In this document: one piece after another, positions 20,957-22,498 of the stretch
Numbering within the stretch: the first letter of the stretch is position 1
Layout of the letters: the number at the start of each line of letters is the position of its first letter
NCBI RefSeq assembly: GCF_015840915.1
Contig: NZ_CP060398.1
Location: forward strand, 558,001 to 622,000
Length of the DNA stretch: 64,000 bases
From: Synechococcus sp. CBW1002
Lineage (GTDB): Bacteria > Cyanobacteriota > Cyanobacteriia > PCC-6307 > Cyanobiaceae
Direction of reading: 5' to 3'
Translations under genes and position numbers: made by a program
The notes under the pieces: model-generated
Database searches by the model: none
The model's input: the letters and a program-made list of their open reading frames with translations, nothing else
What the model was told of the DNA's origin: nothing

Positions 20957-21937
20957 TCAAGGCGGATTGACACCGCCATCAGCGGCATCCGCCGGTTGAA
21001 GCGGCGGCACCCCCATCGCCGCTCGCAGCTTCTCCAGCGGCTCATCCACGTGCTCCCAGAAGTTCCAGGCAGGGTTGAACGTGTCGCCACTGGTGACATC
21101 GCCGCGGTTCCACGCCACCCAGAACTTGCGCGCATCCAGAGCTCCCGTGGCGCTGCCGGCAGGCTCCACGAGCGGCACGCCCAGGTGCCAGCTCACGATC
21201 ACCGGCAGGATGTGCCCAGCCAGCGCCTCCACTGGGTGCATACCGGCAGTGAATGTGCTCACCAGCAACTCCCCCTGCGGCGACGTGCCGTAGCCCGAAA
21301 GCAGGTGGGCGGCATCATGGGGCGTGGTGAAGGCTTCGGCCACTGCCTCCTCCATCCCAGCAAAAGGGAAACCGTTGACGCGGTAGAAGTCGTGAAAGGC
21401 CCGCCCGAAGGTCCCGGGTGGCTTCGCAGCCAGCGCCTCATAGCGCTGGCTGAGTTCCGGAGCCGACGCATCCCGGTAGGGCAGCAGCCACTCACAGAAG
21501 CTCGCCACGTCCTCCACCCACTCGCCGGTGATGCTGGCCCGGTTGCGGCGCAGCATGTCGGCCCGCACCAGCCCCAGCTCGCCCTGCACCAGCGACTGCA
21601 GATCGCGGACTGCCGGCTCCTCGACCCCGAGGGCCTCGGCATAGGCAGCCACCCGCTCGGCCGCAGCGGGCGACACCTGCCCATCCACCGTGGCGATCAC
21701 CACCAGCGGCACGATCACCTCGCTCCCCCGCTCCCCCAGACCCTCGGCCAGCTGGGCCGGCGAAACGCGCTCAAGGCTGTGGAGATCCAGTCCGGTACCG
21801 ATCCGGAACACCAGCAGCGCCGCCGAACACAAGGCACTGCGATCGAGGGCGGTGAGTTCACCATCGCCAGCCCGGGCCACCTCCGCCATCGCGCCAAGGA
21901 TCAGCCTGGCCTGCTGCTCACTGCCATCGAAAATCAC
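20957..21937 (-). CDS. TerB-like / Coq4-like fusion protein
   Basis: A 326-residue two-part protein. Residues ~1-130 are helical and acidic and resemble a TerB-like (tellurite-resistance B) domain (LVVIATVDGQVSPAAAERVAAYAEALGV). Residues ~165-300 match Coq4: His207-Asp-Ala-Ala-His211 followed by 11 residues and Glu223 is exactly the HDxxH-x11-E metal/lipid-site motif. Coq4 acts in ubiquinone synthesis, but cyanobacteria make plastoquinone, so the role must differ. A Coq4 homolog from Nostoc has a known structure with a bound prenyl phosphate. It may share a transcript with the upstream membrane-protein gene. Confidence 0.7.
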   Translation of the reverse strand: MIFDGSEQQARLILGAMAEVARAGDGELTALDRSALCSAALLVFRIGTGLDLHSLERVSPAQLAEGLGERGSEVIVPLVVIATVDGQVSPAAAERVAAYAEALGVEEPAVRDLQSLVQGELGLVRADMLRRNRASITGEWVEDVASFCEWLLPYRDASAPELSQRYEALAAKPPGTFGRAFHDFYRVNGFPFAGMEEAVAEAFTTPHDAAHLLSGYGTSPQGELLVSTFTAGMHPVEALAGHILPVIVSWHLGVPLVEPAGSATGALDARKFWVAWNRGDVTSGDTFNPAWNFWEHVDEPLEKLRAAMGVPPLQPADAADGGVNPP

Positions 21938-22048
21938 CGGCCACTCCCCTGCCGTGGATCACACCATCCTCAGGCGGGAACCGTCGCTCGGCAATGCAGA
22001 GAACTGAGCGCCGGAGCTGGCGATGGTTCAGGGATGGGCGAGTTGTGA

Positions 22049-22498
22049 TCACGGCAACGGTTTGAACTGATCCTGGGGCTCAGAGACTGGCTGCCCGGGC
22101 TGCTTTCGTTTCAGCAAGTGTCGCCTCGACAGGTAGCTCAGCGCCGTTGCGAACACCAACAGGGCCAGCCCGGGCTGGATCGAGACATGGGCCTGAGCCG
22201 CCAGTGGCCATTCGGGGCAGGAGAAACTGGCCCTGAACTGGCTGAGGATCTGCAGCAGTCCGCTGAAGATCGCGCAGAACATGAGCACGACCACTAGGGG
22301 GAACAGCACCAGGGGCGTGACCACCCCGATCAGGGCAAGCACGAGACCAAGGACCTGCAATCCTCTCAGCCAGAGCAGAGTCCGGGTCGTCATCCCAGCG
22401 CCTGGGAGCAACCCGTTCAGCAGTAGGGCGAGTAGCAGGGGCAACAGCAGGGTCAAGGCCCAACGGAACGCTGCGGCGACGGATTCAGGCACAACCAT
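22049..22498 (-). CDS. Small integral membrane protein, unknown function
   Basis: 149 residues with about four hydrophobic helices (10-32, 42-62, 63-84 and 106-124) and a charged, Pro/Gln-rich cytoplasmic tail. No family recognised. Start ATG 22498 opens directly before the first helix. It lies 111 bases upstream of the TerB-Coq4 gene on the same strand, so a two-gene transcript is possible. Confidence 0.6.
   Translation of the reverse strand: MVVPESVAAAFRWALTLLLPLLLALLLNGLLPGAGMTTRTLLWLRGLQVLGLVLALIGVVTPLVLFPLVVVLMFCAIFSGLLQILSQFRASFSCPEWPLAAQAHVSIQPGLALLVFATALSYLSRRHLLKRKQPGQPVSEPQDQFKPLP

Follow-up and report, generated by a model that had tools for sequence, protein, structure and literature searches.

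A TerB-fused, histidine-enriched Coq4-like gene of Synechococcus sp. CBW1002, probably acquired from other bacteria

The window analyzed here, a 64,000-nucleotide stretch of the 3.85 Mb, single-contig genome of Synechococcus sp. CBW1002, contains a gene in which known parts are newly combined: it is a Coq4-like gene that is fused to a TerB-like domain, enriched in histidines and laterally spread, and its placement in phylogenetic trees points to a probable origin in other bacteria. Coq4 relatives are found widely among bacteria that do not synthesize ubiquinone, where no function has been assigned to them, and a laterally spread, fused subfamily with additional invariant histidines provides a testable entry to bacterial Coq4 function. 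A search of open-licence papers found none describing a TerB-Coq4 fusion. The gene and its parts lie in the window as follows.

20957..21937, minus strand: TerB-Coq4 two-domain gene, 326 aa, GTG start (open reading frame, orthologue, AlphaFold model)
21944..21950, minus strand: Shine-Dalgarno-like AGGGGAG, 6 nt 5' of the GTG
21587..21937, minus strand: TerB-like domain, residues 1-117 (hhalign, isolated-domain model, 2OU3 fold match)
21002..21586, minus strand: Coq4-like domain, residues about 118-312 (hhalign, profile match, fold match)
21305..21319, minus strand: HDAAH, first part of the Coq4 motif (H207, D208, H211; sequence)
21269..21271, minus strand: E223, final predicted ligand of HDxxH-x11-E (sequence)
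21185..21238, minus strand: stretch with the clade-specific H234, H242 and H251

The GTG start is fixed by an in-frame TGA eight codons upstream, and the Shine-Dalgarno-like element is unchanged in the orthologue of Synechococcus sp. CS-1328. The two fusion proteins are 91% identical, and the dN/dS of the gene pair, about 0.34 (NG86) or 0.23 (YN00), is below 1, so that a truly coding ORF is supported by comparison of the two species; a shadow ORF or a chance motif is ruled out by orthology, fold and dN/dS. At the 3' end of the gene, window positions 20957-20990 and the CS-1328 locus (L001, 3489-3536) diverge abruptly past about residue 314-316, with unrelated DNA downstream, and this border is possibly a recombination edge.

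An earlier note, made from the sequence, had proposed the fusion of a TerB-like and a Coq4-like domain, and both halves are borne out: profile-profile comparison, fold matches and an AlphaFold model of high confidence establish them. As a single sequence, the protein reaches neither Pfam gathering cut-off, scoring 14.7 bits against 22.9 for Coq4 (PF05019; E 0.02, residues 166-230) and 12.2 bits against 24.4 for TerB (PF05099; E 0.24, residues 73-110), the latter family giving any match in just 3 of 23 family members. By profile-profile comparison, on the other hand, hhalign relates the C half to Coq4 proteins at 99.0% (E 3e-18) and the N half to TerB proteins, represented by cyanobacterial TerB domains, at 98.3% (E 1e-14), the reference proteins having been fetched with the window family's own sequence or profile and those scanned passing the PF05099 or PF05019 cut-off independently. 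Swapped controls, in which each half was compared with the family of the other, returned 2.7% (the TerB cross-control) and 0.2%. When a family profile built with 23 relatives was run against the whole PDB, the first three ranks were taken by 6E12 (E 2e-8), 3MSQ (E 1e-7) and 2OU3 (E 0.04).

The AlphaFold model of the whole protein (mean pLDDT 92.8) displays the Coq4 and TerB folds and not a different one. Its residues 100-312 match 6E12 (Alr8543; Z 10.9, rmsd 5.8, 167 aligned) and 3MSQ (Npun02000094; Z 10.1, rmsd 5.7, 160 aligned), with 16-19% identity in the fold alignment. Foldseek TM-scores to Coq4 structures are modest (0.47-0.48 by target length). For helical folds the Z values are of intermediate size, and the profile-profile comparisons therefore matter here. 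With its single-sequence score under the Pfam cut-off, the C half is described as Coq4-like and not as a plain PF05019 member, its homology being established by profile and fold. With the Coq4 family, which includes the animal COQ4 proteins, it shares the common fold and the HDxxH-x11-E motif, and it differs from that family in the added N-terminal TerB-like domain, in three clade-specific histidines and in belonging to an organism where a ubiquinone pathway is not expected.

The acidic, helical N-terminal region had likewise been read as resembling TerB, and this holds: it carries a net charge of -9 over 117 residues, and in the full model it matches 2OU3, the Nostoc TerB protein Npun_F6341, with Z 8.6 (rmsd 3.1, 108 aligned). 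A somewhat better match is obtained with 2H5N (Z 9.5, rmsd 3.3, 109 aligned), which is again on top when the first 121 residues are modelled alone (pLDDT 91.9; Z 9.6, the following row having 5.2). Because 2H5N is missing from the listing of the TerB sequence search, 2OU3 is the safer TerB reference. The helical fold and the DG-containing repeats are shared with the TerB family (PF05099, including TerB itself, PDB 2JXU), whereas the acidic motif is partly lost and a Coq4 domain has been joined to it. Few residues of this half are invariant (L14, A21, G86 and L103); D32 and D85 are mostly retained in the window clade, D85 being replaced by G in the CS-1328 orthologue, and the acidic residue following the second DG is replaced. 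Since the acidic residues typical of TerB are kept only in part, metal binding by this half is doubtful. We describe it as TerB-like but degenerate, with homology established by profile and fold below the Pfam cut-off.

The exact HDxxH-x11-E (H207, D208, H211 and E223) noted earlier is present, and all four residues are invariant in 60/60 aligned relatives, comprising 35 window-clade proteins, 18 other cyanobacterial fusions and 7 single-domain Coq4 proteins, which argues against a chance motif. The motif is a catalytic Zn site in animal COQ4, where it supports decarboxylation of CoQ precursors at C1, an activity lost in the double mutants H/H and D/E (PMC7615680); for the human protein, oxidative decarboxylation is reported in work cited by PMC11495197. 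Alr8543 was crystallized with oleic acid and with Mg at the HDxxH-x11-E residues (PMC9774615). By analogy, we give about an even chance to the window protein being a Coq4-type metalloenzyme, soluble or peripheral, whose substrate would be hydrophobic, either aromatic or prenyl, and different from ubiquinone. A divalent metal would be bound at H207, D208, H211 and E223, the substrate might be a prenyl- or acyl-phenolic acid and the reaction, for instance, an (oxidative) decarboxylation, while the TerB domain would dock the enzyme to the membrane or to a partner, or regulate it.

The earlier note had instead suggested a lipid- or quinone-handling scaffold at the membrane, in which a non-catalytic Coq4 fold would hold a lipid between its helices and TerB would anchor the protein to the membrane or to a partner. 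This idea is compatible with the fold: the Alr8543 crystals with oleic acid were initially reported with prenyl phosphate (PMC9774615), and yeast Coq4 was long regarded as an organizer of the CoQ complex (PMC11495197). However, invariance of four putative metal ligands goes beyond the needs of lipid binding alone, no clear transmembrane segment is found within the fusion protein and later work assigns COQ4 an enzymatic role (PMC7615680). Given that the animal COQ4 motif is a catalytic Zn site, a scaffold is no more likely than an enzyme, and we regard a purely carrier or scaffold function as somewhat unlikely.

The three histidines that follow the motif separate the window clade from its relatives. 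H234, H242 and H251 are each present in 35/35 window-clade proteins, whereas the other fusions and the single-domain Coq4 proteins most often have different residues at positions 234 and 242; at position 251 the other fusions have E (11) or H (5), H251 thus being a minority outside the window clade. The AlphaFold model places these residues just past the helix of E223 (220-233) and in or just past the next helix (238-250). Together with HDxxH-x11-E they could build a second or enlarged metal centre and make the window clade a different metalloenzyme on the Coq4 fold, a change of chemistry for which their clade-wide conservation and modelled location speak; conserved histidines may, on the other hand, be structural, and we consider such a change distinctly unlikely. 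We would grant an equally small chance to a broader proposal, by which laterally spread two-domain metalloenzymes, found across bacteria with different quinones, would use an enlarged His-rich centre on the Coq4 fold for a membrane-lipid reaction unrelated to ubiquinone, with TerB coupling the reaction to the membrane or metal state.

The presence of a Coq4 site in a plastoquinone organism, which had been remarked upon as odd, turns out not to be a paradox, because cyanobacteria commonly have Coq4 relatives: four additional Coq4-family genes of the window genome score over the Pfam cut-off, and Nostoc is the source of 6E12 and 3MSQ, the two solved Coq4-type structures that the searches returned. 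A ubiquinone enzyme is implausible in this cell, whose genome gave no match to COQ7. A core plastoquinone enzyme is also unlikely, since the genome has UbiD, the decarboxylase family normally used, and the fusion gene is rare: of the 292 cyanobacterial genomes sampled, about 10 have full-length fusions, the window genome included. In this count some query-profile rows come from sampled genomes and match by construction, so that seven genomes are independent.

Outside the cyanobacteria, full-length relatives with 38-45% identity occur in the Alphaproteobacteria (mainly Reyranella and other Rhodospirillales) and in the Nitrospirota. An Acidimicrobiia contig (L030, 7911-8465) encodes a Coq4 part that is 65% identical; the TerB half was not detected on this contig, the title of which gives a coverage of 1.6. 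In the full-length tree the window protein and its sister orthologue form a group of 17 rows with 15 non-cyanobacterial ones (100/99), into which none of the 18 remaining cyanobacterial rows falls, and the branch that decides whether the pair lies inside this group or at its base has 76/62. In the tree of the Coq4 part the pair joins the Acidimicrobiia row (100/99) within a clade of 18 rows (100/100), and all fusions fall on one side of the branch that separates them from single-domain Coq4 proteins (96/89), as is compatible with a single fusion event. Long-branch joins were flagged at the deeper levels of both trees. Because the window protein groups with non-cyanobacterial relatives and apart from the other cyanobacterial fusions, a lateral transfer of the gene between phyla is well supported. 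The same grouping, with full-length relatives in two other phyla, speaks against the fusion being a cyanobacterial invention. As regards direction, the cyanobacterium is the likely recipient, for this copy is found in just two species of one genus, and the GC content of the gene, which resembles that of its neighbours, suggests that the transfer was not very recent. Plasmid cargo was considered and rejected, as tblastn gave no match among plasmids.

The other cyanobacterial TerB-Coq4 fusions (for instance in G267, G233 and G329) have the same domain layout and motif as the window protein, yet they form separate, distant groups with 21-31% identity and mostly lack H234 and H242. One of them is a second, distant fusion in the window genome itself (C1:825957-826916; L047, L098), which the sister species also has (L048). 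Several genomes harbor two or three paralogues, some of them interrupted by stops: copies with in-frame stops or split into pieces were seen in G233 (L114), G269 (L066/L113) and G034 (L041/L068), a pattern that suggests paralogue decay. The window genome also contains several TerB genes. Among these TerB-related sequences, a further combination is that of an N-terminal TerB joined to a C-terminal Mo_nitro_C domain (PF06967) in place of Coq4, encoded in the window genome at C1:3256840-3257157 (L091) and in many cyanobacteria (L070, L072, L074, L083).

The genomic surroundings of the fusion gene were surveyed for a conserved partner, the small membrane protein encoded just upstream having been put forward as one.

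22049..22498, minus strand: gene for a 149-aa membrane protein with hydrophobic segments, 111 nt 5' of the fusion gene

This gene precedes the fusion gene by the same 111 nt in CS-1328, where argS is also close, and the linkage is thus seen in one sister species only. A homologue lies away from argS in a genome without the fusion gene (G035), so that the membrane protein is probably not an obligate partner and the suggested partnership is not supported. More generally, no operon partner is conserved across phyla. In Reyranella-type genomes the fusion gene usually lies about 50 nt behind a thiolase gene and near a divergent cyoABCD ubiquinol oxidase operon (14 loci where the operon was seen; an example is L022, 2377-8942). 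This neighbourhood would suit a quinone carrier or scaffold, and the synteny (thiolase, SDR and cyo) may reflect shared ancestry within one clade. Elsewhere the neighbours vary (MsrA/MsrB, GST, DoxDA, Ysc84, transglycosylase), and most other cyanobacterial fusions look solitary.

The occurrence of methionine sulfoxide reductases and of glutathione transferase or DoxDA next to the gene in single genomes, added to the TerB fold, could point to a tellurite or metal stress-response protein with the TerB half as its working part. We consider this highly improbable: such neighbours change from genome to genome, the N half is less conserved than the C half and no ter operon gene was recognized among the neighbours scanned. 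A phage or anti-phage protein was likewise rejected, PADLOC and PHROGs giving no match. Finally, one Coq4 of marine Synechococcus lies within a prochlorosin-type cluster (PMC10783134); a comparable biosynthetic link was discarded for the fusion loci examined, which show no obvious cluster of this type by gene layout.
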